From: Elusimicrobiota bacterium
Lineage (GTDB): Bacteria > Elusimicrobiota > Elusimicrobia > 2-02-FULL-39-32
DNA length: 64,000 nt
Direction: 5' to 3'
NCBI GenBank assembly: GCA_016180425.1
Contig: JACPBF010000008.1
Span: forward strand, 1 to 64,000
Position numbers and translations under genes: made by a program. Below the pieces are notes generated by a model. The model was given only the letters and a program-made list of their open reading frames with translations. It had not been told where the DNA came from and did no database searches. The first letter of the stretch is position 1. Each line of letters begins with the position of its first letter. Positions 16,201 through 38,833 of this stretch are shown in pieces.

Positions 16201-19200
16201 ATCTTTCCTATAAAAGACTCCTGCGTGTTCAAGAAACCGGAAACCCTTCCTAGAGGATCATACTCCATACCACTCATTCTATTTGTGTTGATAGAGCCGT
16301 CTGCTGATGTCACCTGATCCATGTACTCTATGGCTTGATTCAAATCATTGTAGAGCATCCCGTATCTTAAGGAAGAAACCTTTTCATTAACTTCTTTATC
16401 CTCCCATTTTTTCTGAATTACTCCCTCTTCCACGAGCCGTTTTAAAAGCACATCCGCCCTTTTTTCACCGACAGGAATCAGCAAACCTTGAACTTTCTCA
16501 CCCTTTTCTTCCGCGATCTTTGCCGCTTCTTTTTCTAGATCTTCGGCTCTTTTCTCCAAAAGCAGGCTTAACTCAACCGGTGACAATCTTTTTTCTTTTC
16601 CATCTACCATTTGAGTATAACTAAACCGTTTTTCCCTGCCAGTTTTTATCGTCTCCGTTTCTTGTCCCAGGGACCTGCCAATAAGATCATATTTCATGCC
16701 GCTCACATTCATTTCAACATTTAACCCATTCTCCAGATATTTCTGTTGGTAACCATCAAGCTGACCCATGAGATTATACCCTCGCGCTTCCCAATCAGTC
16801 TCTTCTGCTTTTTTCGATCCGGGTTTGGTGGTGCGGTCATGATAGTTGGTCATATCGCTCAAAAAATTGTAATAGATTTTGGACCGATCCAGAACAGTTT
16901 GAAAAGATTCATCCTTATATTCTTGAGTTGTCTCACGAGAAAATGAAGTCGCCTGACCCAAGGAATTATAGAGGCTGTTTCTCAAAATCGTGGTGGTCTT
17001 AGCCCCCTTCTTGTCAGTACTGACTTCAATAGATCCGACCAGTTGGTTCTGCAGGTCGTAAGAGATAGTTGACAGTTCCCGATGCACTTCCAGTTCAGGA
17101 TTGAGCCAGACTCTTTTGCTTACCGGATCATAGGTAGAGGAAGTTATATTTTCCTTATAAGAAGCTAAACGACCAAACCCATCTAGAACCATATCTTTTC
17201 TTTCAGTAGTACTAATGGAGTCTAATTTAGCAACCCCATCTTGGGAAGTGGTATGCACAGTTTCGTTATAGCTAGTTAAAGTAATGCTGTCCTTAATTTT
17301 TTCTACTGATAGATCTCGTTTTAAATTTCCTTCTCCATCCCAGCCTTTTGTATCCACACGCTCTTTATAACCTACAATCTTCCCATCAGAATCATCCTGG
17401 GTAGATAATCTTGTGGTCGTTACAAGCAAACGTCCATCAATATTTTTCCCGTCCTCGTTTTTTCCAAGAGTAGAAGTGTCCTCTATAGATCCGGATTGTT
17501 TGCCTGATTTATCATAAGTAATATCAGAAACATATTTTTTAATTTCAATATCTCTTTCTCCTTCCTTAATACCCTTCCTATAAATACCGCTAATTTCTCT
17601 ATACCCTATGAGTTGACCACGCTCATTATAACCTTCATTTTTTCCATAAGCAGACCAGTCCTTAATAATTTGTGTCTGAATAGGAGCTGGAACAGGCAAG
17701 GCTTCTTGTTTAAAATATCCGACTTTACCCTTGACTTCTTTATATCCTTTTATTTTATCCCCTTCTTTTTCAGCAACAGACCATGTTTTACCGATTTGAG
17801 TCATATCTGGTAAAGTTTCTAACTCAAAATAACCAATTTGCAAACGTTTATCGTTATAGACAATATTAGTTCTGGTTCTTTCTAATTTCCTGCCTTGATT
17901 ATCAATAATAATTTCATTGTAAGAAAGAGTATCTCCTATTTTTGTATATCTAACATCCCTCCTTTGCATGAGTTGTATGTTCTTTTTCTTCTTATCAGCT
18001 CTGTCCTCATCTTCAATAGTTTGATCAAAGCTGATCATCTGTCCATACTGATTATATTTTGAATCTGAAACTTTAGTCTCAGTTACAAATCCTAAAAAAT
18101 CAGTGCGCGTAGTGGTATGAGAGACCAACTCGTTATATTCATTATATTGAACGTCATGCCAACGTTCTTTGCTCACTGCGCCGCTAGGATCTGTAACAGT
18201 TTGAGTGTACTCTTCTAAAAGATATTTATTATGAACTCGATCGCTAACCCCATTCCACTGAGAATTAATAATATACTTGGCATCTCCCCAATGCTTCGAA
18301 CTCTTGTTGCCAAAAGAATCTATTGTATTTTCATCATAACTCATCAGATTGTCATTAGTATCATATTTTGCATTGGTCCAAATTTTATTAGAGTGGTTGC
18401 CAAAAGTATCTATCTGTTCTTCATCAAAATGAGTAATTCTACTTTCATCGTCATACTTCATATTTTTACGAAAGATGGTGCTGGCATTGCCTAAAGGATC
18501 CACACGGTTTTCTTCAAAGCTGGTAATTTGTTGTTTCGCCACAGTATCTTTGCCAGCGTAATACACAGAGTCATCAGTGTAGGTAATATCTTTACGCCGG
18601 GTGGTCGTAATATTCCCTTGAGGGTCTGTTTCATCCGCAATGTAAGAAGTCATCAAGCGCTTATTATTATATTGCATCTGGTAAGTATTCCTTAAAGTGA
18701 GATTCCCGCGCGCGTCTAATACTCTTTCATTAAGAATTCTTGTGGTAAGACCATCTTTAAAAAATACTTGCTTGCCATCATTGTAAAGAATATAGTTCGC
18801 TTCTGTGCCCGCAGCCACATCTTGTTTAGATTGTTGTCTAACTTTAGCAATGTCTCCTTGAATGCCTTTCATGGTTTCTAAATTTTGCCAGAACTGTTCA
18901 GCTGTCATCTTCTCTTTGCCATTATACTGCTCCTGGCCCTTAGGCATTTGTAAGCCCCTGTCTTTTAAAAGCTGCTGAGGGGTTTCAATCCTCTCAAGCT
19001 GTTGTTTTTCTCTTTCCATCAATCTTTCCGGGCTCATGTAGCCTGAGCGGTCTCTATCTTCTCTTAACTTGTCATATCCTGGAAGAGCATGAAACACAAT
19101 TCTTCCAGCCGTCCAATAAAGATTAATTTTTATTTTTAAATCATGGAAAAAGTTTGGCAGCGCATTTTTAGGCATGGCCATCATCACATTCTGCGCAAAC

Positions 19201-20216: not shown

Positions 20217-20759
20217 ATGAAATACACGACTGTTTTCCATTTAATTGGTAAGCTAACAAAAAATGAACATATCTCTTGTGTTCTCATAGGTGGTTTTGCA
20301 ATTAATTACTATAAGGTAACTCGCCAAACACTGGATGTAGATTTTTTAATTACGAAAACTGATTTTGAAAGAATAGAAAATCTCTTGAACCAAGAGGGGT
20401 ACAAAAAAGATTTTATCGAAAAAGTTTTTATTAGGCTTAAAAATAGTGGGAAACAGCTAAACCTTATGGATATTAATTTCATGTTTGTGGAAAAGGAAAC
20501 TTTAGATAAAATTATCCAAGAAGGAAAGGAAATAGTGATTGGGGGTCAAAAATTTTTTATTCCATCCCTGTCTCACTTAATAGCGCTAAAATTACATTCA
20601 ATTAAATATAACCCGCATCTTAGAGAACTGAAAGATCTGCCAGACATTGTCAATCTTATTCGAATGAATAATATCAATACAAAAGACAAAAAATTTAAAG
20701 AGCTCTGTTTAAAATATGGGACAGAGGATCTATACCAAAAAATTTTAAATTACTTTTAA
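20217..20759 (+). CDS. Nucleotidyltransferase-fold protein (AbiEii/MNT-like)
   Basis: A 180-residue protein with the DNA polymerase beta-type nucleotidyltransferase signature: Gly25-Gly26 in a hydrophobic strand-turn (VLIGGFAINYY), the Asp40-x-Asp42 metal pair (TLDVDFLI) and a candidate third acid at Asp85 (LMDINFM). The C-terminal half is helical (HLIALKLHSIKYN and a Leu-Pro-Asp-Ile-Val-Asn-Leu-Ile segment), as in standalone nucleotidyltransferases of toxin-antitoxin and abortive-infection loci. It would transfer a nucleotide to a protein or RNA target, but the target is unknown. ATG follows an A-rich run without a clear Shine-Dalgarno. A 53-codon gene starts eight bases after its stop, so the two look co-transcribed. 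Confidence 0.7.
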   Translation: MKYTTVFHLIGKLTKNEHISCVLIGGFAINYYKVTRQTLDVDFLITKTDFERIENLLNQEGYKKDFIEKVFIRLKNSGKQLNLMDINFMFVEKETLDKIIQEGKEIVIGGQKFFIPSLSHLIALKLHSIKYNPHLRELKDLPDIVNLIRMNNINTKDKKFKELCLKYGTEDLYQKILNYF

Positions 20760-22481: not shown

Positions 22482-23948
22482 TTAAGCTAGTTTTTTGGAT
22501 TCAACCACAGTCCTACCCATTTCCCCTTTAACAGGCATGGTAAAAAAGAAAGTGGTGCCTTTACCTTCTTCGCTTTCAAAGCCAATTTTTCCGCCATGGG
22601 CTTCTACTATGCCTTTGGCAATGACCAATCCTAAACCAGTTCCCTTAGGTCCTTGAATCTTATCCTTAGAACCCGGCACCTGCTGGAACCTTCCAAAAAC
22701 AAGATGTTGATGCTGCTTTGGTATGCCTATGCCATTATCTTTTATGGAAACTTTTATAAATTCATTTTTATCAAACTCTTCCGCAATTAAAATAATGGTG
22801 CCGCCTTCAGATGTAAATTTGTAAGCATTAGAAAGAAAATTGGTTATGACCTGCCGCACCTTTTCCCCATCCCCAGGAACTATTGGAATATTTTCCGCAA
22901 TTTGTATTTTGCCTGTAAGTTTCTTTTTATCAAACAAGGGTTGGAATAAACCCATAACGCTTTCTCCAGTGGCTCGAATATCAAAAGGAGATTTATGAAT
23001 TTCCATCTTGCCAGCTTTAATTTTTGCCGCGTCTAAAACATCGTTTACAAACTGAGTTAAACGAGTGGTGCTCTCCTGAATAATATTAAGAGCTTTCTTT
23101 ACTTTATCTGGATTCAGTTCATTTACAGGCTTCATGGTCAAGAGCTCTACATAACCGGAAATAGCTGTTAAAGGGCTGCGCAGCTCATGGGACACGCTGG
23201 AAACAAACGCGTCTTTCAGTTGATCCAACTCCTTTAACTTAACCGCCATGATATTAAACTCATCCGCTAAAACCCCAATTTCATCTTTTCTTTTAATATC
23301 AATCTGTGTTTCTAAATTTCCTTCGCCAATAGCTTGGGCTCCTTTAGCCAGTCTGATAATAGGACGGCTTAACTGGATGGCGAAAATAAGCGAGATGATG
23401 AATCCAACGATAAAAGCTCCTGAGGCCACATAGACAATGATTTTTTTAATTCTGGAAACAGATTCCTCTATATTTTCTTCAATTTTATTTTCATAAAAGC
23501 CAAGATAAACAGATCCTACTCTGCCTTGAGGCGAATCCACGCCGGCAGAAAAATTTAAGATTTTTCTGTTGTCTTTAAGAGATAAGTTTTCAAATGCGGC
23601 TGGATTTTGAGCTTTTTTTAAAATTTCTGGATCACTGCCCATCAGCTCAGCGAAAGGATTATTCTTGCCTAAAATCAGCTGCCGCTTATTATGCACAAAA
23701 ACAACGTATGCGATTCCTTTTACGGTTTTCTCTAAAGAAGCCACGTAATTAAAAGCAAAAATATCATCCCGGCTAATTTGGGACTCTTCGCAAACTTTTT
23801 TTAAATTTTGTAAAACACTCTTTTGGTTGGATTCAATTTCCTGCAGAACTAATTTTTTTAAAAAATATAAAGTTGTGTAGCTGGTGCCTGCCACAACAAT
23901 GCCGGTTAAAAATAGGGAGAATAGTATGAAGCGTGTGCGTAATTTCAC
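22482..23948 (-). CDS. Membrane sensor histidine kinase
   Basis: A 488-residue kinase that autophosphorylates on His and should phosphorylate a receiver, here probably the one in the gene just upstream. Order: membrane helix 1 (about 7-30), an external sensor region (about 31-168), helix 2 (about 169-193), HAMP (194-245), HisKA with phospho-acceptor His254 (SVSHELRSPLTAI), and HATPase_c with the N box (NFLSNAYKF, Asn374), DNGIGI near 404 and a GTGLGL box near 436. It starts with GTG 13 bases after the stop of the receiver-fusion gene, so the two form an operon in the order receiver then kinase. It ends at a bidirectional terminator. Confidence 0.92.
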   Translation of the reverse strand: MKLRTRFILFSLFLTGIVVAGTSYTTLYFLKKLVLQEIESNQKSVLQNLKKVCEESQISRDDIFAFNYVASLEKTVKGIAYVVFVHNKRQLILGKNNPFAELMGSDPEILKKAQNPAAFENLSLKDNRKILNFSAGVDSPQGRVGSVYLGFYENKIEENIEESVSRIKKIIVYVASGAFIVGFIISLIFAIQLSRPIIRLAKGAQAIGEGNLETQIDIKRKDEIGVLADEFNIMAVKLKELDQLKDAFVSSVSHELRSPLTAISGYVELLTMKPVNELNPDKVKKALNIIQESTTRLTQFVNDVLDAAKIKAGKMEIHKSPFDIRATGESVMGLFQPLFDKKKLTGKIQIAENIPIVPGDGEKVRQVITNFLSNAYKFTSEGGTIILIAEEFDKNEFIKVSIKDNGIGIPKQHQHLVFGRFQQVPGSKDKIQGPKGTGLGLVIAKGIVEAHGGKIGFESEEGKGTTFFFTMPVKGEMGRTVVESKKLA

Positions 23949-23961
23949 TTATAGATATTAG

Positions 23962-25761
23962 TTAATGTATGGGTTGTTCCTGAGTTTCTTCATGGCCTTG
24001 AGCGCCGTCTTCTTGACCCCCTTCAACTTTAGATACTGACTTTTCTACCTCAACAATCTTTAATGGTGAGCCCTCTTTTAATTCTTGCGGCCTTTGTATT
24101 ATAACTTGTTCTCCAGCTTGAAGTCCAGAGGCGACCACGCTATGGGTCAGTGAAACATAACTAACCTCAACTGACCTAACCTCGGCTTTATTCTCCTTGC
24201 CTACAATAAAGATGCGGTAACCCTCTGCTGTTTTTTCTAACGCATCGTTGGGTAGAGCAATCACATTATCTTTTTCATAAATAATAATGCGCGTGCGCGC
24301 GAACATCCCAGGCAAAAGAAGCTTGCCTGTATTTGGCATGCGCGCTTCCACCATCAATGTTTTAGACTGCCCCTGCACTAGAGGTGAAATATTTTCTACC
24401 TTTCCTTTAAATTCCACGTTGGGATATGTTTCTACAGTGGCTAAAACCATCTGTCCGGGGAAAATTTTATCAATCTCTTTTTCTATGACTCCAATCCGCA
24501 CAAGCACGGTATGCAGGCTAACCAATGTTCCAACCTTTTTTTGAGGCGTAACAAATTCGCCTACTTCCACACCCTTATCTCCAAAAATGCCGTCTTGGGT
24601 AGCTCTTAAAATAGTTTTAGATAATTCGCTCTGGGCAAAATCCAATTGCACTTTAGCTTCATCCAAGCGGTCTTTGGAAACACCGCCTAAAGCGTACAAT
24701 TTTTCATAACGATAGTATTCAGATTTTGCTCTTTCTAATTTAATTGAAACTTGCGTCTGATCTAATTGCGCAATCACCTGGCCAGAATGAACGCTATCCC
24801 CTTCTTTAAAGTTAAGTGAGCGCAAATTTCCTTCTGTTTGAAACCGAAGCTCAATCTCTGACCCCCCCGCCACAGTGCCCACAGCGCTTAAAATATCTTG
24901 AAATGGAGCAGGGGCAGCCTGCATCACATTCACAGAAACTTCTGTAAGCTCTCCGGATTCAGCTGTTTTGGATTTATCTTTTTTAGAACCTAAAAATTTT
25001 TTATAAAGCATGAAACTTCCATAAGTTGACCCAACCAGCAAACTAAATGAAACTCCAATAGAAATAATTTTATTTTTCTTGCTCTTAAAAGCCCATGTTT
25101 TAAAAGCTAAAATTTTAGAGGGTTTCTCTTCTTTTTTACCAGCAAAGGATTCAAATGTCTTTAATTCTTTGACTGGCCCCTGCGCAGTTTCATCTTTTTT
25201 TAGCTCTGAAATAGGCGCGCTAGGAGCCTCGCTCTGTGCTTGTGGTTTACTAGGAGCGCTAGGGGGCAGGGAAGAAGCACTTTGGGTTGTAGGAGGAGCT
25301 AGAGGTTTTGAAACTTCTTTTGCAGCAGAGTCTCCAGCAGAATCCTTTAATTGTGAAGGGAGACGGGGCATGACCCAATCTTCTTTTTGAGCTGCCAGTA
25401 AATTTTCAACTTCTTTTAAGAGTACGCTTCTGCGAAAAGGTTTAGTAATATATTGATTCGCTCCTAAACTCATGGCTGTTTTTTTGTCAAAATCTGAATC
25501 CCGGACCGTCAAAAAAACCACTGGAATATCTTTAGTTTTTGGATGCGCCCTAAGATTTTGGCAGAGTACAAACCCGCCCATTTTAGGGACCTCAAGATCT
25601 AGGATAAAAAGATCTGGAGTATTGGAAAGCCCTTTTTCTAACCCTTCTTCCGCTGTTTGCACAAAATTAACGTCATAACCGCGCTCTTTTAGTATATCCA
25701 CAATCACCTGGCACAATTCCAGGTCATCATCCACTACCAAAATTCTGTATAAATTTGCCAT
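23962..25761 (-). CDS. Receiver domain fused to a HlyD/RND-type membrane fusion protein
   Basis: A 599-residue protein with an unusual order. Residues 1-122 are a response-regulator receiver: acid pocket Asp11-Asp13, phospho-acceptor Asp55 (LFILDLEVPK) and Lys107 (YITKPF). A Pro/Ser/Ala-rich linker (about 135-200) leads to a basic stretch and one membrane helix (about 231-253). Residues about 272-585 are a periplasmic adaptor: barrel-sandwich halves (LRFQTEGNLRSLNFKEGD and Gly-Ile-Phe-Gly-Asp-Lys-Gly-Val), a helical hairpin between them, a beta-barrel and a membrane-proximal domain with a Leu-Pro-Gly-Met-Phe-Ala-Arg segment typical of RND adaptors. The Lys cluster before the helix predicts receiver inside and adaptor outside. 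No RND pump or TolC gene is adjacent. The sensor kinase follows directly. Confidence 0.9.
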   Translation of the reverse strand: MANLYRILVVDDDLELCQVIVDILKERGYDVNFVQTAEEGLEKGLSNTPDLFILDLEVPKMGGFVLCQNLRAHPKTKDIPVVFLTVRDSDFDKKTAMSLGANQYITKPFRRSVLLKEVENLLAAQKEDWVMPRLPSQLKDSAGDSAAKEVSKPLAPPTTQSASSLPPSAPSKPQAQSEAPSAPISELKKDETAQGPVKELKTFESFAGKKEEKPSKILAFKTWAFKSKKNKIISIGVSFSLLVGSTYGSFMLYKKFLGSKKDKSKTAESGELTEVSVNVMQAAPAPFQDILSAVGTVAGGSEIELRFQTEGNLRSLNFKEGDSVHSGQVIAQLDQTQVSIKLERAKSEYYRYEKLYALGGVSKDRLDEAKVQLDFAQSELSKTILRATQDGIFGDKGVEVGEFVTPQKKVGTLVSLHTVLVRIGVIEKEIDKIFPGQMVLATVETYPNVEFKGKVENISPLVQGQSKTLMVEARMPNTGKLLLPGMFARTRIIIYEKDNVIALPNDALEKTAEGYRIFIVGKENKAEVRSVEVSYVSLTHSVVASGLQAGEQVIIQRPQELKEGSPLKIVEVEKSVSKVEGGQEDGAQGHEETQEQPIH

Positions 25762-25979: not shown

Positions 25980-26870
25980 TTATTTTTCTATGATTACGTC
26001 TTGGCCAATTTTCCATATATTCTTTTCTAAAAAAGCTTCAATGGTTTGCCGACTGGCTTTATTGATAAGATTTGAATGAGAAAGTTTATTATGTTTTGCA
26101 TATTCAACAAGAGTAATAATTTTTTTACCCTCTAAATATGCCAACCGTTTATGGTAGCTATTTGTAAGCGCCCTGCCTACTATACCCTCCATAATAGCAG
26201 CTATTCCTTTTTCATCAAACTCTTTGAATGCTTCATAATATTTTTTTCTATCAATAAATTTTATATTTATTGGAACAAACCCTTCTCTTATCAATAAATA
26301 ATTATTTATAACTCTGCCTATACGGCCATTGCCATCTATAAATGGATGCGTATATTCAAAAGTAAGATGTAATCTTGCAATACGCTTGATGATATTTTCA
26401 TAACTACTAGCATGATATTCTATAAGCATTTTTTCCAATCTTTCTATGATTTCTTTTGGAGCTGGAGCAATATGGCTTCCAACTCGAACATATTCATTAT
26501 CTTTTCTAAATCTTCCAGCGATATCATCTTGTATGTTAGAGATAAGCATTTTGTGGAGCGATAAAATAACATCCAGACCAAGTTCTTGTTCTTTGGCTCT
26601 TTTATCTATGTACGATACTACTCGCGCAAGATTTTTTGTCTCAAAAATTTCCCGCTCAGTAACAAAACGATCCAAATTAATTTGCAGGAGTATCTTTTCA
26701 GTTTCTTCAAGCGTAAGAGTGCTATTTTCAATGGCGTTTGAGTTATAGACTTGCTCAGCAATTTCTGCTTCACTGATAAGATTAATAAGCGCATCCTTGC
26801 TCATAGACGCTTTATAATATCTCTCGCGGAGCGAATTTATTTTATTGAAGAAATTAGATATTTTTGCCAT
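25980..26870 (-). CDS. Fic-family protein, class II (AMPylator type)
   Basis: A 296-residue Fic enzyme, expected to transfer AMP or a related group from a nucleotide onto a hydroxyl side chain of a target protein. The catalytic loop HPFIDGNGRIGR is intact at residues 175-186 (His175). The N-terminal inhibitory helix motif S-x-x-x-E-N is present as Ser44...Glu48-Asn49, so this is a self-inhibited class II member. A C-terminal winged-helix-like segment (about 240-290) is common in this family and may bind DNA or the target. Promoter TTGACA/TATACT lies so close to the ATG that the transcript is probably leaderless. The gene is alone, with 29-bp repeats on both sides; single-gene acquisition is likely. 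Confidence 0.9.
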   Translation of the reverse strand: MAKISNFFNKINSLRERYYKASMSKDALINLISEAEIAEQVYNSNAIENSTLTLEETEKILLQINLDRFVTEREIFETKNLARVVSYIDKRAKEQELGLDVILSLHKMLISNIQDDIAGRFRKDNEYVRVGSHIAPAPKEIIERLEKMLIEYHASSYENIIKRIARLHLTFEYTHPFIDGNGRIGRVINNYLLIREGFVPINIKFIDRKKYYEAFKEFDEKGIAAIMEGIVGRALTNSYHKRLAYLEGKKIITLVEYAKHNKLSHSNLINKASRQTIEAFLEKNIWKIGQDVIIEK

Positions 26871-27127: not shown

Positions 27128-30100
27128 TTATTGATTAATCACTAAGACTTGATGTTCTAAGGCTCTTTCTGAAACATCATTCACAAGACCTTGAACAAGT
27201 TTCATTCCGCTGGCAGTCATTAATACAGTTTGGATCATGTTGGCATAGGCGAAACTCTCATTCAGGCGATTTAGGTCATTGGTTAAGAAGTCCACGCTAA
27301 CCCCTTTCCAGCCCCAACGCATTGTCTCTCTATAAATTGAGTCTAAAGCAATGCCATTCTTCACATTTTCATAGGCAAGCAAACGGACTTTGCCATTTTT
27401 GACAGCTTGATTTAGAATCAGCCGATGTTTTTCATCTAAGACTTTTAAAAGTTCTGCTTGAGATTTGCCAAGCAACAAAAGTCCGCGTAACTCTTCTTTT
27501 TCAATTTGTTCTAAAGAATCTTGAACATCATTTTTAACAAATGAAAGCTGGATGTCTTGAACATCTATCCATCTTACCCCATGTCCTAAATTTGGAGCCT
27601 GTTTTCCAGGTTTAATTCTGGTATCTCTGGCCACTTGTACTACTGCGCCTTTACCATAGCCATAACTATAATTTTTAATAAATCTCTGATAGGTTAATTC
27701 TTTCTTTTTTTCCAGCCCAAGTTTATCTTTAATATTTTTTAAGAATTCTGTTTGATCCATAGTCACTTCCATCCTCTTAAACTCAATCCAATCTTGAAGA
27801 TAGGTGGAGCGAACCTCAGGGAATAAACGATCTAAAGGTAAGGATGAGACTTCCACATTTTTTGCCTTAAAATATCTATTAATATCCTCACTTATCTCTA
27901 CTCCCATGGAGCCTGCTATTCCATAAGCCTCGGCAATAATATCTTTATTGCCAAATTCTTTCTTTATGCCCTGATCTTGATAAATTGTTTTTAAATCATT
28001 TTCTAAGGGTTTAAGAGCTTCATCCCTTTCTGTTTGAGTCATATAAGGAAGGGTTCGGCTTAAAATCGCTAGCTGATCATTTACTTTTGCTAAAGTCTTA
28101 GTCATTTTAACTGAAGGGGTAGTAAGCCATGTGTAAGCTATGACAGCTAAAGCCAAAGGAACTACAATCGCCAACACTGGCAGTAGAATAGAGCCAAAAC
28201 CAGCAGGAGCTGTTGGTAAAGATTGAATAGCTATAGACGCAGAAGCATCTGTAGGTAAAGCATGGGATACAAGGTTCTTTAAAGTATCTATCACAACTGC
28301 GCCCACACCAGCCAAAATTGCTAAAGTTTTATGTAAGCTCTGTCTATCTTTTAAAGAAGATTGTGAAATTCTCGAAGATTCTGAGCTTTGCAAACTTTGA
28401 TCCTGGACCGTATGATTCAATAATAGCTCTTCAGTTTCTTGATCCCCGGGTTTAGTGTCTGTATATAGAGCAGGAACAGATGGTTTATAATCTACCGACA
28501 CTGAATTTGAGTTGAATCTAACATGGTCAATTGAGAAAATTTTTCTTTCTTTGCTATCCAGATTAAACCGTCTTAATTCATTTCCATTAGGTTCAAGTAA
28601 AACTAACATCTGATCATTGCCTGCATGCGCTCTTACCCAAAGAGTTTTTCCATCAGGGCTAAAAGCCACATGGTCAGCTTGTGCCCCTGCTAAAGAAGAG
28701 AATAGATTAATTTCTATTGCAGTAGTATCATTAGGACTCCCAATCTTTTCATATTGAATCTTTAAATGGTCCTGATCTAATAGAGTAGCTCTGATGAGTT
28801 TGGCTCCACCATCATAATAATAATCAGTCTTTAGAGTTCCTGCAGTGATGCCTAACCATTTTAAATTTCCATCTGTTTCCAACTCATGACCAATTTCTAA
28901 AAGACTATCATTATATTGTCCATTGGCAAAAATAAAATCTTTTCCGGCTTTTGTTTCTAAAGCAACTGTTTCAACGCCTGTAAATAGATTCATATAACCC
29001 ACATTAATACTGATATTTTTAATTTGAGTTCTATCTTCAAGACGAACTACTCTTAAGTCACTGGCAGTATAAACCATTGCGTATTTGCCATTTGAACTCA
29101 AGACAAATCCTTTAAGATCCGTAAATGGAGAGTATTTTTGTTGAATATCAATCACTTTCTCTGCATTGCCTTCTATAGGATCAATCACCCACAAGAAATT
29201 TCTCACAACAAAACTACTGGGCGTTGCCCCATCCTTACTGATAATGACTAACCTGTTTCCAGTTTTATTAAATTCTGAATATTTTAAAGCTCCATCAATA
29301 GGAACAATTGTCTCTTTTCCAATTTGATTGTCTCTTAATGTGACAATAGTCTGATAATAAGGTACTCCTATATTAGCCTGCTTTACTTCAAACTTAACAG
29401 TAAATTTATCGCTGATCATATCCCAACCTGTAGGAGCTGTTGGGGACACTGCGGGTTGAGGCGTAGGCTGAATAGCAGTTTGTGTTTGCGGATCCGGGGT
29501 TTGAACAATTGCTACAGGAACATTTGTCTCTGTCTTTGTTTCAATAACTGGGATAACCTTGCCCTCGCTATCTAATGGTGCATTAGTTGGAGAGACTATT
29601 GCAGGAACATTGATTGGAGCTGATATTGCAACCTGAGGCGTTGTTACCGGATTCCCTGAAATATTGCATGCTGCTAAGATCGCTAGCGCCATGGTTCCAA
29701 AAACTAATTTAAATTTCTGAAGAGCTTTTAGTATCTTTTTTTGAAAATAAGTTCCAGCCACAATCGCAGCCATTAATACTGGAGCCATACCTAATAAATT
29801 TGGAATATTTGGTAAAGCAAATGCCATGCTTCCAGATAATAGTATGATTGCGCTAAAAATTGCTGAAACCCCGGCTAAACGAGTTAGGGCTTGATCCATC
29901 TCTTTTTTTTGCGCATCATCCTTTGTTGCGTATAAAATCATTCCAACCACAAAAACAACAGCTGCTACTGCCGCAGCTAAAACAAGCGTATTAGCAACAA
30001 AATAATTTAAAGGAGCCGCCGCATTGGTCCCGCTGAACAATTGCGCTTTGCTTACTGACGCACTGCCTGAAAGAAGAACAGCCGCATGAGCAACAGGAGC

Positions 30101-33100
30101 GCACATCCATAAAAGGGCTGTAGTTATGATTGCAAGGATGGCAAGAATTAAGCTAGACTCAATTCTCGCCTGACCATCCTCATTTTTAATTAAACTCATA
30201 ATCATAAGTGATAGACCAGATTTCTCATTAGAAGATGTATCCTGATTCTTTGTAGAAAGAGAGGTTTGTTGAGAAATTTCATCTTTTGAAAAAATAGGGA
30301 ATTGTAATTTGGTTCTCTCATTTGTCCTGAAATTTTGAGAAGCAGTTGCTTCAGTTAAAGGTATTTCTACACTAGCTGGATCACCTGCTTTATAGGTGTC
30401 CGCAGGAGGATAGTTTGTTCCCCATTTTTCTTTAGTTGCAATAGCAGGCTTAAAGGCGATAATGACAGAATTTTTTGTTACTCTTGTTCGGTCAATGGAG
30501 AAGATTGGGCTGCTATTTGTATCACTGTCAAATCGAGCTGCTCTATTCCCTTTATAATCAAATACATCCAATGTCCAGAGCTGTTTTCTAATGATAGTTC
30601 CATGTGTCCAGTATCTCTTCACCCACACATATTTTCCATCAGGGCTAAACGCGATATGATCCACATCCTCATATCCTAACCAATCCATTAAAAACACTTT
30701 TGTCTCTGTGTTCTTATACATATTTTTTAAAACTAAACTAATTTTATTAGTATCTCGATTATGTTCCTTATAAGCTGAAACCACTCCATCAGGGGTAAGC
30801 CATACAGCTACCTGTTGAGATCCGCCAGTCACGCCCAAAGCCTCTAGTTTGCCATCTGATTTTAATTCAAAACCTGCTTCAATGGCTCGATCACTCAACT
30901 TGCCTTGCACAAAAATTAGATCCTTGCCAGATTTAGATTCTAAAACAACATTTTCAATATTTTCTAAATTAGATGCATAACCAACTGTAGCATTGGAAGC
31001 GCTGATTTTAACTCCATCCAATAACCTAATACTCAAGAATTCACCTTTAGAAGTATAAGCAACCGCATGCCTTCCATCTGAACTAAGCACAAAGCCGTTG
31101 ATAGTGGTAAAGGGAGAATATTTCTCTGAATAGGAGATCGCTTTCATTGCTGTTCCATCCAAAGGATTAACTACCCATAAAAAATTTCTCACGACAAAAC
31201 TGCTGGAAGATGCGCCGTCACCAGTAATTACAACTAAACGATTTCCATTTTTATTAAAATCTGAATATTTAATAGCGCCATCAATCTTCACAGTTTTTAC
31301 TTCCCCGGTTTGGCTGTCAGTGATGGTTATGATAGTTTGGGCAAATGGCCCGCCAACGTACGTTGTTTCAAACTTAGCAGTGAACCTTCCACTCATCATC
31401 TCCCAACTTGGTTCCGCAGAAGCTGTAGGAACAGGGCTAGGAGAAACTGCTGGCGAAGGAGATGCTGAAACTGTAGGAACAGGACTAGGAGTAACATTCC
31501 CAAACGTATCGTTACTGATAGAAGGAGTTCTTGTAGGTTCCGGTGTAGGAGAAACTGTTAGAGAAGGAGAGTCTGAAACTAAGGGCTCTGGAGTAGAACC
31601 TAATACAGATTCTATGACTTGAGACTGACCCGTTCCCATGGATGTTGGAATCACTTTTGATGGTAATCCTATTGCTGTACATGACAAAATCGCTGCTAAA
31701 GTTACGAGCCCTATGAACCCTACAATAAAACTATATAAGGTAGAGCCACCGTTCCTAAGTATGCTTAAAATGTTTATTTGTTGAGGAGGAGCTTTGCGTT
31801 GTAAAACAAAAATCAACATTTCCAGAGCTTTTCTATATTGAGAATTCTGTTCTATAGCAACTTGACTTAAACCCGAAGTTTCATATCCAGGGAAAAATTT
31901 CTTAAGCACCCTTTTATATATCTGGACAATCTTTTCACGAACTTCTGGATGTTCTGAAATAATTAAATCAAGAATGGATTGAAATCCAAAACGTAATTGC
32001 TCGTTCTCTCTTTTTCCACTCAAAAACTTCGTTAATCTAGTTATAAATTGATGCACAACACTATATTCATCCTGCGTAAACTGCTCATTAAAGATCATTA
32101 ATTCACGTTTCAGGAAATTAACAAAATCTTCATCTCTTTCTTGCTGATTCACAAATGCTAAAGCCTCTGCCAACTGATCCAAATCTTTAAAATCATGAAT
32201 AGCCTCATTTCTAAAGAAAAACAGAGGGTTAGATCTTGGATCTTGAGAAATATCCCCGGTAATAATATCTACAGTGAAATGACCATCTTTATACCGTACA
32301 TTTGCCCTTAAAGCTGGGGGTGAAAAAGAATCTCCTTCCAGAATCGGCCAAATCTCTTTCATGCTCATGCCAAGGGTAAACTTATTGTAAGGAGCTCCAG
32401 ATTCACTCAACTCAGTAACCAATTTATTTAATTCTTTTGATCCATTGGAATTCACAGTCTCTATCAGCATGGGTTTTCCTGTGTTTGTGTTAAAAATAGC
32501 ATTGCCGCCCTTTTGTTTGTCAGAGTTTGTGACCAATTCTCCTACAAAATGATGCCCATGCTCCAATTGGTAGAGGACAAAAGCCAGCCAGTGTAAATCT
32601 ATGGCTCCTCCATTTATCATGGTTAAATCATTCAAACGATGATAAACCGCCATATCTACTCCCTGATTTCCAAGAATAGTAGATACACTCTCATCCACTA
32701 ACTTTTCTTCTCCACTCCAGTTTAATTGAAATGCCCAGCCCTTTTGATAGTAAAGAGACAAAGTTGCAGACCCATGTCCAAATGGCAGTTCCTCTTCTCC
32801 CGGGTATTGTTCTAATTTTCCAGTTTTATATTGATAGAGCGGGTAATAAGGCTGTCTGATAAAATAAATTTTTTCTGGGTTTAACCCATAAAAATTGTTT
32901 TGTATAAAATCATTTTTAACCTCTTCCCAATGATTTTCATCAATATAAAGAACCATGGGCAAATTAAATATGATCGTTTGAATTTGATCCTGAGAGTAAC
33001 CTTTTAATTTACCTATCTTTTCCAAAAGATACCTATATTGCCACAACTGTCTTTGAGCTAAGGTCAGTTTCTGCGTCTCTTCAGGAAGAGAATTTTTAGC

Positions 33101-36100
33101 ATGTTGAACAGCCATGCGTAACTCTGTAAGTTTTTCTGCCACTTTTTCTTGTGTCTTTTCTGTCTCACTTTTTTTCTTTCTCAAAACCATTTCTCTGATA
33201 GCTTTTAAAATTAGAGTGAGATTGCGGTCATTCGTATTTCCAGTCCCAGAAGAATCGCTAGTCTTTAAAACCCCATCTGCAACATCAATAAGGTCTAAAC
33301 CAAACATGGATCCAACCCCAAGCCGCGTAGCTGCGCCGCCAAACATTAAATGAAAAGAGATTTCTCCTCTTAATAAAAGATCCTCTACTTTTTGCACATA
33401 AATAGCATGATCTTCAGAATCTATAAACTTTTGATATAATGCTTCCGGATTAAGCTCATCTGGCAAAGCAGTATAATCCCCTTCTTTAACATCAACAAAT
33501 TCAGAAGCATTAATTTTATCCACAATTTTTTGTATTCTCTTGTCAATCTCTTGCTTAGTTAATGTACTCTCAGGATTTTGGCGTTGATCAAGTAATCCTT
33601 TAATCTGATCATGATAAGGCTCTAGTTTCTGATAAAGAAGCTCCAGACATCTGTTGACAAAACCATTCTGAATAGAATTATTGCGCGATGCGCGATTTTC
33701 ATCAGTCTGCTCATCCTTACTCGAACCACGATGAGAAACTTCTGGTCCAGCCAATGGACCTGGGGTCTGAGGAGACAAAGGTTCATTTGGTTTTGGATTT
33801 GAATTTGGGTTTATTGGCGGCTCAAGTGGAGCAGCCTCAGTAGGAATACCCACAAAACCAAGAAGAAATTCTCCTAAACTATTCTTAAGCCAAGGATTAG
33901 ATGTTTGTAGCCCAATGCCAAAAATTTTGCTTAAATTCTTAAAACTAAAAAAAGAAGATGAGGAAGCTGATTTCTTATTTTTTACATTTGCTTGAACTTT
34001 GTTTCTAGATTCAGAAGAGGTTAAAGTGACGTTAATACCCAGACTAGTATCTGGACTGCCAGAAGTTTGTGGAACCCCAGCCACTGCTATACCAGCGGTG
34101 TAACCTAAACTTCCAACAATATAACTTCCCTGATTATTAATCGCATTCATATCCTTGGTGAAAATTCCAATAGTGTCGAACTCATCTCGATTTGCAGTTT
34201 CCGGCAGATTGTTCAAATTAATCTCCACCCCATAAACCTTTCCATCTTGAGATACCACTAGACGGTCTGGAATTGGAAATAAGCGAGAGCCAAATTTTCC
34301 AATCTCTATGTCAATATTCTGAATTCCATCTGCTTTAATAGGAAACACAACTAATGGATTTGTGCGATCCGCTCTAGAAAATTCACCTGCTGCAAAAGTC
34401 CATAGGGTTCCGCCAAACCCGCCGCTATCCCTGGCTGCTCCTCTTAATACCTGCACTTTTAAAGCGTCAATTTCAGATCCGGACTCAAGTGTGAATTTAG
34501 TTGCTGTTGTTTTTATAAAATCTTGTCCGCCTTGCGAAATCCTTCTAATAATGGGATTACTAAAGAATGCGCCCGCCACTGAAATACTATTACTCGGTAT
34601 AACGCGCGCAATCACTGGCACATTAGGCGTGGGCTGTGGAGTTGGGGTTGGGCTGGGTGTGGCTGTGGGAGAGGGTGAAGGCTGCGGTGTAGGACGAATA
34701 ACATTTGCATCCAGCTCAAAAAGCACTGGTTTATTAGAAACATAAGTAATTTCGTCAATAGGACCATACTGGGGTAAATTTTCAATCAGTTCAGTAAAAT
34801 AATCGCTCTCATCTAACCGTCCCAATATATTCTCAGTATAGACTACTCTGCCAAATCTTTTTAATTCCAGGTTTATAAAATCGTCCTTTGCCCTTACAGA
34901 GCCAGCAGGAAAAACTGGTTTAACAGCAACCCCATAACTATTGCTTGCGTTAGTAATGGGATTTACGAATAATAAAGAAAACCCGCCTCCCAAAACATCT
35001 TTAACATCAAGCACTGTGGTTGTTCTTCCATTGCGTACAGGTCCATTAAAATTACGGATCGTTTGACGGCCAATCACTACAACTTCACTTGCCACAGGTT
35101 CTAAAGAAGGGGTTCCACCTTTAGTCACCTGAATAAGAGGAGCAATAGAAGCGCTTGCGTCTGGTGTGGCTGAAGGGCTGGCGGATGCTGTAGTTGAAGA
35201 GCTGGGACGCTTAATGTTCGCATCCACTTCAAACAGCATTGGTTTATTGGAAACATAAGTAATTTCGTCAATAGGGCCATACTGGGGTAAATTTTCAATG
35301 AATGTGGTGAAAAAATCAGCTTCATTTAATCTTTCTAACAAATTCTCATCATACACAACTCTGCCAAATCTTTTTAATTCCACTCTTACATAATCATTCT
35401 TTTCTTTTACGAAACCAGCAGGGAAAACTGGCTTTACAACTACTCCATAACTATTGCTTGCATTTGTAATGGCATCTGCGAACACTAAAGAAAAACCGCC
35501 TCCCAAAACATCTTTAACATCCACTACAGTGGTTGTTCTTCCATTGCGCAGAGTGCCATTAAAATTAATAATGGTTTGACGGCCAATACGCGCCATTTCT
35601 TTTGCCACAGGTTCTGCGGTAGGATCTCCCCCCTTAGTGACTTTAATTAAAGGTGAAATAGAAGCGCTTGCGTCTGGCGTGGTTGAAGGGCTAAAAGGCT
35701 TATTGATCAACACTTTTTTATCTTTTGGATTTATTCTAACTCTAAATGATCCTTCATTTTCCCAAGCGGCTGTATATCGTTTATTGAAAAATATCCCTAT
35801 TCCATCCACACGATCCGTAAGAATCGCATATTGAGCTATATCTTTATGCCCAAAATTAATTTTAGGATCCTTCATTTTCCCTTTTTCAAAACCTTGCACA
35901 GACTTTTCAAAATATTTATTGCCTGAACCTCCATTCGCCGGGGTGGCATCTTCAATTTCCATTGAAGGCTGGCTAGGGCCATTAATTATTTCCAGAGAAA
36001 ATGGCGTTATGTTTTGATTCTGTAAATCAAGCCCTTGGTTCGGTTTACCTAATTTAAGGAAAACTCCAGCTACTTCATCTTGAGATTCTGGCTCGCTATA

Positions 36101-38833
36101 TTTCCAGTCAACTACAAAAGTAGTTTCACTTTCTGGTTTTATTTTTACAAATGAACCAACCCGCACCACATCCGTAATATCTAGTTCAGATAAATCGCCT
36201 TCATTAAAATCTGAAACATCCAAAACAGACTGAATGCCAACAGCTTTTAATAGTTGAGGCGGTAAAGGACACCCGCCTAAAGGAAAGGATAAGAGCGCTG
36301 CGGCTAAAATAGAGACAAACCTAGTTGTTGGTTTACTAAAAAAACGAGAGGTTCTATCACCCCCTGGAAAAATAGCCGGTTTTTCTACTTGCTCTATAAT
36401 GGTTGATTTCCTGCCTTCTAAAAGAGCTAGACCGATAAAAGCTAACGCAATAATAACAGCAACTAAAATAACTCCGGGAACTGTTAAAGCTAAACCGTTA
36501 GGGGAATAGAAAGCATTTGTCATTATAAGAACGGGTATGCCAACTATGAGAGCAGCTGCGCCTTGCATATATTGAGTTGGAATCTTTCGAACAAACTGCG
36601 CGGCTCTAGCTAAAATGTGGGCTGGCTTTACTCCGCTTACCAGAACCCGTCCTTGTTCAGAGCCAATTTCCGCTGCAACGCCCGCGTCTAGTTCATCCAC
36701 TCCATCCAAAAGATTTAATTCAGTTAATGTCTCTTTTGGATTTTCTAACAATTTTTTGTTTAGAGCTTTGTCCTCACTTTTAATTGGAGTCCATACTTTA
36801 ATTACCTTACCATTGCGATTAATTTCCGCTTTATAAATTGATCCTGTTTGTTGAGCATGAATAACTTTTTCCATGCTGCCGGAAATCTTTTTGCCTTTTA
36901 ATTTGCTTAAAATAGGAGTAAATGTATCCAATGCGCCTTGCGCGCCAATGCCTTTTGCAGTATCTGGATACTCGCTTGCAAGCAAAGATGCTAAAGAAAC
37001 TTTTTCCGGCAAAAACATTTTTTCTAAGGGAATCAGCCCTCTTTTAAAACCATTTAAAGGATGATATTCTTTGTCAACTTTTGCCACATCCATTCTAGGT
37101 CTTACAGTAATAAAAGAAACTCCCTTTGCCTTTAAAGACTCCTCAATTCCTGAACTATGATAACCCCCGGCAATTAAAACACTGATCTTTTGCTCTTTTT
37201 GTTTCATCCTTTCTGCTAATTGGCTGGTAAAGATTCCATTTCTTTCTTCAGAAAGACGGCTGAATTTCTCTACGTTTTTAAGCACCTCTTTTACCTGTTG
37301 AAATTCTGCTTGATCTTCTGATTGACTATTTTTTCCTTCTAATTTGGCGATTTTTTCTGGAATCTTTGTTAGTTCTTTTTCTCTCTTTAAATAATCCTGC
37401 CATTCCTCAACATTCAAACTAAAATTTAAACCCTTATTCATCAAACTAAAATCTTTATCCAGTTCATAAACTTCGGCCATTAAAGGATTGGCGCTGATCT
37501 TCTCTTTAAAAACTTTGTCGCTAAAATTTTTAAGCTCTTCAAACAATTTTTCCCGATCAATCCCTTCTACTTTTACAAGATACTGAATGTATTTTTTAAT
37601 TTCAGGAGTCAGCTTAAGATCCACAAGACTTGCGCGCTCAATTAAATGATTATAAAACTCCGCATATCCTATGCTGCCTAAACGGTAAAGCAAACTCTCT
37701 TGCAGCAACTCCACCAACTTACCTTGAGATAATTTCTGTGTAAGTTTTTCCAGTAATTCTCTTTGTTTTTTCTCAACTATTTTAAAATCTATCTCTTTTT
37801 CAATATGGTAGGCATTTAAATATTGTGCCAGATTAGAAAAATTTCTATCTTCTTCCCCAAAAGTTTTAGAAGTTGCTTCCTGCAAAGCTCCTGCCCAATC
37901 TCCTAACTTTATTTCACCATTCTCATATTTTTGTTTAGTTTGATCTAATCTTTTTAAATCCTCGCTATAAATTCTTGCTTTAAGGCTGGCAATCTTTAAA
38001 TGAGTGGAGTCTTGCCAATGCTTTATTTCATTATTCTTTCCTAAAGTCTCTTTAAAACTTTTAACTTGATCTAAATATTTTTCTTTCTTTTCCACGCCAT
38101 AAAATTCTACCTGACCTTTTCCTTTGCTTAAACCAGCCACCTCCACTCCAGTTAAAATTCCTTTCCTTAATAAATAGCCTGCCACTTCCCTTAAGCTCTC
38201 TTGATCTGGATTATTTCTCCATTTTTCTATCCCTTGCATAACTCCTTCTGCGCCTTCCACTCCCACTACATTCACTCCCAACCCCATAAATTCCTTTATT
38301 AGGAAAGCGATATTTTTCTGCACGCTATAGATTTCATGGGCATCTTGGACATGGATTACAAGAGGCATTTTTGCATCTAAATTAAACTCCTTGATTCTGT
38401 TTGTATCAGACTCAATATTTACTTTCTGACCCTCTGCTAAATAAACTCTTTCTATTTCGCCAAACTGCTCGATTCTATTTACTAAATAGGAAGGCAATTT
38501 AAGCTTTTGAGATTTTGCATTGGATTTATGTTGTAAAGAGGGACTTATGGTTTTAGACAAGCTTTCTAATAACTCTGGACTCACTCCTTTAGGCATTAAC
38601 ATCCCATTGCCAATCACGGTTTGAAAATTAGCAGCAGAGGCGATCTGAGTATAATTATTTTCTTGATCCTCAGAGCTTTTTTTCAGCTGTTCTACCGCAG
38701 TCTTCCTTTCTTGCCAAATAGAGGCCTGGGCAAAAGGCGCGGCCACTATGGTAAAAAGAAAACTAACTGCCACTGCTGCGCCAGTTGTTTGCAGCCAATT
38801 TTTATTGTTCTTTTCCGTCCAGAACTTAATCAT
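27128..38833 (-). CDS. Giant mosaic envelope protein (3,901 codons)
   Basis: Signal peptide at residues 12-38 (ends Ala-Gln-Ala). About 150-590 is a domain I recognise from Omnitrophota giant proteins (IHVQDAHEIYSVQKN, later AGGYHSSGIEESLK), possibly related to the TraB/TIKI fold. Membrane helices near 760-815 precede a lipoprotein-like segment ending Pro-Leu-Gly-Gly-Cys at about 855. Tandem units of about 170 residues start near 1068 and 1240, with a third diverged one after a Pro/Thr/Ser linker near 1385. About 1710-2345 resembles UDP-sugar pyrophosphorylases (GGAATRLG near 1829, LPMVLYIDEN, a His-Gly box near 2020). A second lipobox-like Cys is near 2385. Propeller-like domains lie at about 2480-2810 and 3135-3460, separated by several helices and a third lipobox-like Cys near 3055. 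A final helix near 3560 precedes a 325-residue C-terminal domain. Ribosome site GGTGGTG precedes the ATG. Whole-protein function unknown. Confidence 0.88.
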   Translation of the reverse strand: MIKFWTEKNNKNWLQTTGAAVAVSFLFTIVAAPFAQASIWQERKTAVEQLKKSSEDQENNYTQIASAANFQTVIGNGMLMPKGVSPELLESLSKTISPSLQHKSNAKSQKLKLPSYLVNRIEQFGEIERVYLAEGQKVNIESDTNRIKEFNLDAKMPLVIHVQDAHEIYSVQKNIAFLIKEFMGLGVNVVGVEGAEGVMQGIEKWRNNPDQESLREVAGYLLRKGILTGVEVAGLSKGKGQVEFYGVEKKEKYLDQVKSFKETLGKNNEIKHWQDSTHLKIASLKARIYSEDLKRLDQTKQKYENGEIKLGDWAGALQEATSKTFGEEDRNFSNLAQYLNAYHIEKEIDFKIVEKKQRELLEKLTQKLSQGKLVELLQESLLYRLGSIGYAEFYNHLIERASLVDLKLTPEIKKYIQYLVKVEGIDREKLFEELKNFSDKVFKEKISANPLMAEVYELDKDFSLMNKGLNFSLNVEEWQDYLKREKELTKIPEKIAKLEGKNSQSEDQAEFQQVKEVLKNVEKFSRLSEERNGIFTSQLAERMKQKEQKISVLIAGGYHSSGIEESLKAKGVSFITVRPRMDVAKVDKEYHPLNGFKRGLIPLEKMFLPEKVSLASLLASEYPDTAKGIGAQGALDTFTPILSKLKGKKISGSMEKVIHAQQTGSIYKAEINRNGKVIKVWTPIKSEDKALNKKLLENPKETLTELNLLDGVDELDAGVAAEIGSEQGRVLVSGVKPAHILARAAQFVRKIPTQYMQGAAALIVGIPVLIMTNAFYSPNGLALTVPGVILVAVIIALAFIGLALLEGRKSTIIEQVEKPAIFPGGDRTSRFFSKPTTRFVSILAAALLSFPLGGCPLPPQLLKAVGIQSVLDVSDFNEGDLSELDITDVVRVGSFVKIKPESETTFVVDWKYSEPESQDEVAGVFLKLGKPNQGLDLQNQNITPFSLEIINGPSQPSMEIEDATPANGGSGNKYFEKSVQGFEKGKMKDPKINFGHKDIAQYAILTDRVDGIGIFFNKRYTAAWENEGSFRVRINPKDKKVLINKPFSPSTTPDASASISPLIKVTKGGDPTAEPVAKEMARIGRQTIINFNGTLRNGRTTTVVDVKDVLGGGFSLVFADAITNASNSYGVVVKPVFPAGFVKEKNDYVRVELKRFGRVVYDENLLERLNEADFFTTFIENLPQYGPIDEITYVSNKPMLFEVDANIKRPSSSTTASASPSATPDASASIAPLIQVTKGGTPSLEPVASEVVVIGRQTIRNFNGPVRNGRTTTVLDVKDVLGGGFSLLFVNPITNASNSYGVAVKPVFPAGSVRAKDDFINLELKRFGRVVYTENILGRLDESDYFTELIENLPQYGPIDEITYVSNKPVLFELDANVIRPTPQPSPSPTATPSPTPTPQPTPNVPVIARVIPSNSISVAGAFFSNPIIRRISQGGQDFIKTTATKFTLESGSEIDALKVQVLRGAARDSGGFGGTLWTFAAGEFSRADRTNPLVVFPIKADGIQNIDIEIGKFGSRLFPIPDRLVVSQDGKVYGVEINLNNLPETANRDEFDTIGIFTKDMNAINNQGSYIVGSLGYTAGIAVAGVPQTSGSPDTSLGINVTLTSSESRNKVQANVKNKKSASSSSFFSFKNLSKIFGIGLQTSNPWLKNSLGEFLLGFVGIPTEAAPLEPPINPNSNPKPNEPLSPQTPGPLAGPEVSHRGSSKDEQTDENRASRNNSIQNGFVNRCLELLYQKLEPYHDQIKGLLDQRQNPESTLTKQEIDKRIQKIVDKINASEFVDVKEGDYTALPDELNPEALYQKFIDSEDHAIYVQKVEDLLLRGEISFHLMFGGAATRLGVGSMFGLDLIDVADGVLKTSDSSGTGNTNDRNLTLILKAIREMVLRKKKSETEKTQEKVAEKLTELRMAVQHAKNSLPEETQKLTLAQRQLWQYRYLLEKIGKLKGYSQDQIQTIIFNLPMVLYIDENHWEEVKNDFIQNNFYGLNPEKIYFIRQPYYPLYQYKTGKLEQYPGEEELPFGHGSATLSLYYQKGWAFQLNWSGEEKLVDESVSTILGNQGVDMAVYHRLNDLTMINGGAIDLHWLAFVLYQLEHGHHFVGELVTNSDKQKGGNAIFNTNTGKPMLIETVNSNGSKELNKLVTELSESGAPYNKFTLGMSMKEIWPILEGDSFSPPALRANVRYKDGHFTVDIITGDISQDPRSNPLFFFRNEAIHDFKDLDQLAEALAFVNQQERDEDFVNFLKRELMIFNEQFTQDEYSVVHQFITRLTKFLSGKRENEQLRFGFQSILDLIISEHPEVREKIVQIYKRVLKKFFPGYETSGLSQVAIEQNSQYRKALEMLIFVLQRKAPPQQINILSILRNGGSTLYSFIVGFIGLVTLAAILSCTAIGLPSKVIPTSMGTGQSQVIESVLGSTPEPLVSDSPSLTVSPTPEPTRTPSISNDTFGNVTPSPVPTVSASPSPAVSPSPVPTASAEPSWEMMSGRFTAKFETTYVGGPFAQTIITITDSQTGEVKTVKIDGAIKYSDFNKNGNRLVVITGDGASSSSFVVRNFLWVVNPLDGTAMKAISYSEKYSPFTTINGFVLSSDGRHAVAYTSKGEFLSIRLLDGVKISASNATVGYASNLENIENVVLESKSGKDLIFVQGKLSDRAIEAGFELKSDGKLEALGVTGGSQQVAVWLTPDGVVSAYKEHNRDTNKISLVLKNMYKNTETKVFLMDWLGYEDVDHIAFSPDGKYVWVKRYWTHGTIIRKQLWTLDVFDYKGNRAARFDSDTNSSPIFSIDRTRVTKNSVIIAFKPAIATKEKWGTNYPPADTYKAGDPASVEIPLTEATASQNFRTNERTKLQFPIFSKDEISQQTSLSTKNQDTSSNEKSGLSLMIMSLIKNEDGQARIESSLILAILAIITTALLWMCAPVAHAAVLLSGSASVSKAQLFSGTNAAAPLNYFVANTLVLAAAVAAVVFVVGMILYATKDDAQKKEMDQALTRLAGVSAIFSAIILLSGSMAFALPNIPNLLGMAPVLMAAIVAGTYFQKKILKALQKFKLVFGTMALAILAACNISGNPVTTPQVAISAPINVPAIVSPTNAPLDSEGKVIPVIETKTETNVPVAIVQTPDPQTQTAIQPTPQPAVSPTAPTGWDMISDKFTVKFEVKQANIGVPYYQTIVTLRDNQIGKETIVPIDGALKYSEFNKTGNRLVIISKDGATPSSFVVRNFLWVIDPIEGNAEKVIDIQQKYSPFTDLKGFVLSSNGKYAMVYTASDLRVVRLEDRTQIKNISINVGYMNLFTGVETVALETKAGKDFIFANGQYNDSLLEIGHELETDGNLKWLGITAGTLKTDYYYDGGAKLIRATLLDQDHLKIQYEKIGSPNDTTAIEINLFSSLAGAQADHVAFSPDGKTLWVRAHAGNDQMLVLLEPNGNELRRFNLDSKERKIFSIDHVRFNSNSVSVDYKPSVPALYTDTKPGDQETEELLLNHTVQDQSLQSSESSRISQSSLKDRQSLHKTLAILAGVGAVVIDTLKNLVSHALPTDASASIAIQSLPTAPAGFGSILLPVLAIVVPLALAVIAYTWLTTPSVKMTKTLAKVNDQLAILSRTLPYMTQTERDEALKPLENDLKTIYQDQGIKKEFGNKDIIAEAYGIAGSMGVEISEDINRYFKAKNVEVSSLPLDRLFPEVRSTYLQDWIEFKRMEVTMDQTEFLKNIKDKLGLEKKKELTYQRFIKNYSYGYGKGAVVQVARDTRIKPGKQAPNLGHGVRWIDVQDIQLSFVKNDVQDSLEQIEKEELRGLLLLGKSQAELLKVLDEKHRLILNQAVKNGKVRLLAYENVKNGIALDSIYRETMRWGWKGVSVDFLTNDLNRLNESFAYANMIQTVLMTASGMKLVQGLVNDVSERALEHQVLVINQ

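Follow-up and report, generated by a model that had tools for sequence, protein, structure and literature searches.

The 64,000-nucleotide stretch of DNA analysed here (the window), from a groundwater bacterium of the phylum Elusimicrobiota, encodes a giant protein of 3,901 residues. We favor, with reasonable though far from full confidence, the view that it is an exported, membrane-held protein which joins a Tiki-type front module to a captured sugar-nucleotide enzyme and belongs to a large family of elusimicrobiotal giants. The original prediction was made without this family context: giants occur across the phylum, share a common, probably Tiki-type N-terminal module and appear to carry many further captured enzymes.

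A Single Long Reading Frame Under Selection

The giant protein of the original prediction was verified as one uninterrupted open reading frame on the minus strand (27128-38833), with no stop in 3901 codons. Searches of Pfam, NCBIfam and the PDB with the whole single sequence gave no reliable match; the matches reported below were obtained solely from profiles of homologues. The viral collections searched yielded no relatives of the giant. Its modules are listed in Table 1.

An orthologue of 3770 residues with the same architecture (88.5% identity) is encoded on an independent contig of the closely related Elusimicrobia bacterium RIFCSPLOWO2_02_FULL_39_32 (MGUU01000003.1). Two 55-residue stretches are present in one of the two proteins and missing from the other. 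Between them, dN/dS is 0.23 overall, 0.27 in the enzyme domain and 0.06-0.10 in the beta region (residues 871-1640). Therefore, we conclude that this is a genuine gene, maintained by selection as a single long frame. Contigs C10 and C33 end within near-identical giant sequence, so assembly near such genes is difficult; nevertheless, given the orthologue, the dN/dS and the lack of stops, we rejected mis-assembly of the window giant, and an artefact of any such kind, including a run of separate genes that were fused, has a negligible probability.

Downstream of the giant lie a fusion of a response regulator with an HlyD-type membrane-fusion domain (23962-25761, minus strand) and a histidine kinase (22482-23948, minus strand). 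A response-regulator ORF likewise comes after the giant at locus L002 and in genome G010. In the window, a Fic-domain gene (25980-26870, minus strand) stands between giant and response regulator; the corresponding spot of L002 has no space for it (giant ends at 11532, next ORF from 11646). The window also holds a second giant ORF of 5047 aa with one Cys (4266-19409, minus strand), in which BLAST finds no Tiki front module, and an AbiEii-type nucleotidyltransferase ORF (20217-20759, plus strand).

Table 1. Modules of the window giant, from N to C terminus
Feature	Position in window	Strand	Residues	Remarks
Signal peptide	38717..38833	-	1-39	AxA-type site PFAQAS; same pattern in paralogues; by eye
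N-terminal module, probably Tiki/TraB/ChaN superfamily	36914..38716	-	40-640	D164-x-H166, E193, R531, H559; long helical insertion
Linker, strong membrane segment and basic loop	36320..36913	-		Linker about 659-755, in several giants; membrane segment 776-809
Hydrophobic-Cys segment 1	36260..36319	-	839-858	C855
Related beta-type units with Pro/Ser/Thr linkers	33914..36223	-	871-1640	Two stretches 76% identical over 105 aa
UAP1/UGPase-like domain	32114..33637	-	1733-2240	
Helical extension	31748..32101	-	2245-2362	Also in G010
Hydrophobic-Cys segment 2	31649..31747	-	2363-2395	C2385; C[AT]A[IV]GLP common to orthologue, paralogue C18a and G010
Pro/Ser/Thr linker and beta-rich block 1	30254..31648	-	2396-2860	
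Cluster of hydrophobic segments	29657..30181	-	2885-3059	Last is hydrophobic-Cys segment 3, C3056
Pro/Ser/Thr linker and beta-rich block 2	28349..29656	-	3060-3495	Copy of block 1
Membrane segments	28115..28324	-	3504-3573	
C-terminal domain	27131..28066	-	3590-3901	Also in giant C10b, its G007 counterpart and a 257-aa ORF on C13

A Probable Tiki-Type Hydrolase Heads the Giants

The signal peptide that had been predicted for the window protein was recognized by eye from its AxA-type site and the shared pattern of the paralogues. Together with the module that follows, it forms a front end that is found in 21 ORFs of the same genome, two of them truncated within the module by contig ends. These 21 giants comprise about 95,000 aa, or 10.9% of the genome, and the front module is present in 66 of 341 Elusimicrobiota genomes.

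Four motifs (IxxQDxHxxxxxQxN, G-x-E-G, R(N/D) and GGxHxxG) are nearly fixed among 32 front modules. PF04187 (ChaN, Tiki superfamily) matches four of the 32 (best 5.6e-7), with paralogue C43 above the curated cut-off (31.2 vs. 27.7 bits); the N-terminal module of the window protein itself reaches no Pfam cut-off, which relatives alone do. Tiki enzymes use two His, two Glu and one Arg (PMC6254334). The conserved residues of the front module come in Tiki order, and the catalytic set is spaced as in RRSP (H to E, 27 vs. 28; R to H, 28 vs. 29), with an Asp in place of the first Glu. As the residue set matches in order and spacing, we read the module as a Tiki-type hydrolase with a helical insertion that is probably active. 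It thus resembles the Tiki/TraB/ChaN/EreA superfamily in its acidic-x-H, E, R, H set, but differs in the Asp, in the long insertion between E and R, and in mostly heading a larger chain. AlphaFold modeling of the module from a shallow alignment gave a mean pLDDT of 33.

Contigs break in near-identical DNA where the Tiki module ends (ends of C10 and C33; C34 and the start of C33), as if recombination or conversion had taken place between giants.

A UAP-Like Domain Within the Chain

A domain resembling UDP-GlcNAc/UDP-glucose pyrophosphorylases had been predicted inside the protein, and its motifs are in place (GGAATRLG at residue 1832, LPMVLYIDEN at 1958 and a Gly-His-Gly box at 2019). A profile of nine homologues matched UDP-GlcNAc pyrophosphorylases in the PDB at 2e-5 (8yp3), 3e-4 (4bqh), 9e-4 (3oc9) and 6e-3, and eight of its nine PDB matches belong to the UAP1 family. 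On the level of profiles, the resemblance to UAP1/UGPase is therefore statistically supported. The likeness to UAP1/AGX and UGPase (PF01704) covers the GGxxTRLG loop, the mid-domain and the P-x-G-H-G box. The alignment of the nine homologues has 33 invariant columns and keeps the GGAATRLG-type loop, N-D-x-T, E-L-V-x-N and Q-K-G-G, with P-x-G-H-G in most rows; the invariant QKGG is a possible counterpart of EKVG, the Lys-containing element of UAP1. However, the PK that follows the first GGxxTRLG loop is absent in all nine homologues, which do have GGAATRLGxG. Therefore, we refer to the domain as UAP-like and not as a member of the UAP1/UGPase (UDPGP) family, from which it also differs in lying below Pfam detection and inside a probably exported giant. 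AlphaFold modeling of the domain, from an alignment of only two sequences, reached a mean pLDDT of 41.

Only nine of the 341 genomes carry the UAP-like domain. It is embedded in giants of the genus itself (two genomes), of G009, where a phosphoglucomutase-type domain follows, of G323 (two copies in an 11,814-aa frame) and of G242 (3871 aa). G176 has it in a 1288-aa frame, and in three genomes (G324, G325 and G186) it is encoded by free-standing genes (501-544 aa) with no signal peptide apparent. In a tree of the domains, five embedded copies cluster at 100/99, while the G242 copy has no resolved position; the cluster fits one capture and subsequent spread. In the C-terminal half of the equivalent G010 giant, the helical extension is retained together with hydrophobic-Cys segment 2 and the beta block. 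Upstream of the extension no UAP-like core was found in this ORF, which is cut by the contig end, and the UAP-like enzyme may therefore be an insertable unit.

The same genome encodes a second UDPGP-superfamily domain, which is UGPase-like (PDB 2oef, 1.5e-5), in giant C10b (L001/L027, contig C10, 2309 aa). This giant also has the C-terminal domain of the window protein. When the two enzyme domains were compared by hhalign, only the GGAxxR loop was aligned.

Metabolic Enzymes as Recurring Cargo

Judged from sequence, the giants consist of a constant front end followed by variable cargo, often an enzyme of central metabolism. A Pfam scan of 85 kaa of sister giants detected isocitrate lyase (ICL), malate synthase (MS), AceK, FBPase, glutamate dehydrogenase (GluDH), TIM, iPGM, a GAPDH C-domain, 2-hydroxyacid dehydrogenase, SecA, DnaJ, ABC1 kinase, ARMT1 and the UGPase-like domain. 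Giants of the same family and of other classes of the phylum add PGK, PEPCK, PGM/PMM, carbohydrate phosphorylase, GH77 and amylase, and ICL, MS and GluDH were found there again. By eye, many of the strong matches appear to fall on a path that starts at acetate and leads to sugar phosphates, nucleotide sugars and glycogen. Some embedded enzymes keep their active-site motifs (ICL, KKCGH; FBPase, DPLDGS; TIM, GHSE and YEP).

SecA and TIM are also present as free proteins elsewhere in the genome. At the sensitivity of the search, the genome has no free relatives of the embedded GluDH, FBPase, MS, ICL and iPGM, and GluDH- and MS-like copies occur in another giant. One polypeptide of 6930 aa (L023, contig C33) combines GluDH, FBPase, MS and ICL, and the adjoining 9975-aa giant has GluDH- and MS-like copies. 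A giant of G007 (C5) was rejected as the orthologue for dN/dS of the embedded ICL, MS and FBPase, being only about 32% identical. The SecA-like motor core lies in a 5253-aa giant (L041:6211-10710, contig C42) and comprises DEAD, P-loop and preprotein-binding parts; TGEGKS is kept.

Cysteine Depletion and Location

The 21 ORFs with a front module and two further bodies, which lie at contig starts and have no such module, together contain 134 Cys in 94,887 residues (0.14%). Embedded SecA has no Cys in 570 residues compared with seven in 903 for the free protein, and embedded TIM none in 310 compared with five in 268. UAP-like domains have 0-2 Cys when embedded and 3-4 when free-standing. Near absence of Cys and the signal peptides together point to a location outside the cytoplasm, and we consider the giants to be probably extracytoplasmic. 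A low Cys content is also seen in some ordinary genes of the window, which limits its value as a marker of location.

Hydrophobic Segments Ending in Cysteine

Only five cysteines are present in the window giant (855, 1729, 2385, 2911 and 3056). Lipoprotein-like segments had been predicted at about 855, 2385 and 3055, and hydrophobic stretches do close with C855, C2385 and C3056. All three cysteines are conserved in the orthologue, whereas C2911, the fourth in a hydrophobic segment, is not. Among the giants, a hydrophobic 14-mer precedes about 4% of positions compared with 9% of cysteines (11/119); in the window protein it precedes four of the five. Giants C18a, C18b and C34a contain similar hydrophobic-Cys segments.

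The blocks that start with segments 2 and 3 (segment, linker and following domain) share 37% identity over 442 aa (E 1e-86), by which they are an internal duplication. Searches of the PDB gave no convincing match for the beta-rich blocks, so they can be called propeller-like by eye only. Ahead of segments 1 and 3 lies in each case a strong membrane segment with a basic loop, an arrangement in which the Cys of these two segments could point outward, as it does in lipoproteins. No second membrane segment is present between C855 and residue 2363 in the window giant (G010 has a partner segment). For this reason, if segment 1 takes the membrane orientation of a normal lipobox, segment 2 would have the opposite orientation to the one that lipidation requires. 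The proposal that several lipoproteins had been strung together holds in part, since one unit of segment, linker and domain is present twice, at segments 2 and 3.

The segments share with bacterial lipoproteins (lipobox, signal peptidase II) the hydrophobic stretch, the small residues, the Cys and the Pro/Ser/Thr linker. In contrast to lipoprotein signals, they are internal, and an AxA signal peptide occupies the N terminus instead. Lipidation or cleavage at these segments is possible.

Discussion

We propose that the modules of the giant were acquired through fusion and duplication, and that the chain would be exported by Sec. Internal hydrophobic segments may then hold it at the membrane for periplasmic or surface display. 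For the enzyme domain, we envisage capture of a free-standing cytoplasmic gene and subsequent retention under selection. More speculatively, the Tiki module could hydrolyse peptide or ester bonds, possibly trimming giants or target molecules, and captured enzymes might be kept because they still bind sugar-nucleotide or metabolite ligands. Catalysis by the enzyme domain outside the cytoplasm is hard to explain, since UTP and other cytoplasmic substrates would not be expected there.

Three readings remain: working extracytoplasmic enzymes, binding-only relics on a surface giant, and a precursor that is cut into pieces. The last would be a polyprotein whose internal lipoboxes are processed, either in an Lgt/LspA-like manner or by the Tiki module, to yield several lipidated proteins. 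It draws on the conservation of the three hydrophobic-Cys segments, behind each of which a linker leads into a new domain, on the duplicated block, on the lipobox-compatible topology of segments 1 and 3, on the Cys kept in C18a and G010, and on the similar segments of C18b and C34a. However, substrates of signal peptidase II are usually N-terminal, a membrane segment to partner segment 2 is missing, most sister giants are devoid of hydrophobic-Cys segments, and the separate genes that had been envisaged for the pieces were found for the enzyme domain alone (in three other genomes). We regard it as rather unlikely.

A surface or adhesion giant in which the captured enzymes are dead structural or ligand-binding units is a stronger candidate, although still doubtful. 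The missing PK element, the numerous hydrophobic segments and the beta repeats agree with it, as do studies in which the giants of Omnitrophota and related phyla are interpreted as serving at the surface or in predation (PMC10066038, PMC12057145). Against dead units speak the active-site motifs of the sister-giant enzymes, the purifying selection on the enzyme domain and the apparent concentration of the cargo on one part of metabolism. That same concentration (glyoxylate shunt, gluconeogenesis, sugar-nucleotide or glycogen steps) would suit a fused metabolic complex in the cytoplasm, with the signal-like start as a mere membrane anchor, and so would the lack of detectable free relatives of GluDH, FBPase, MS, ICL and iPGM. 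The AxA sites that follow the signal sequence in paralogues, the near absence of cysteine with its paired loss in SecA and TIM, and the existence of these two as free proteins make such a complex improbable. It is also unlikely, if slightly less so, that this stretch of central carbon metabolism has moved outside as Cys-stripped, working enzymes in Tiki-led giants that act at the surface or, once transferred, in another cell.

One study notes that Elusimicrobiota encode many huge proteins to which no function has been assigned (PMC11573180). Giant ORFs of Omnitrophota and other PVC-related phyla are likewise very long, poorly annotated, rich in hydrophobic segments and present several per genome; the shared Tiki front module and the central-metabolism cargo were not found in the available text of PMC10066038, PMC11573180 and PMC12057145. 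Within the partial literature covered, which leaves preprints outside, we found no description of either in giants.

About a tenth of this genome is given over to giants with a common front end and copies of household enzymes that are normally confined to the cytoplasm. Metabolic enzymes inside giants are an unexpected arrangement. The shared hydrolase module and the recurring metabolic cargo make the purpose of bacterial giants testable, in terms of their location, cutting by the front module and the function of the enzymes.
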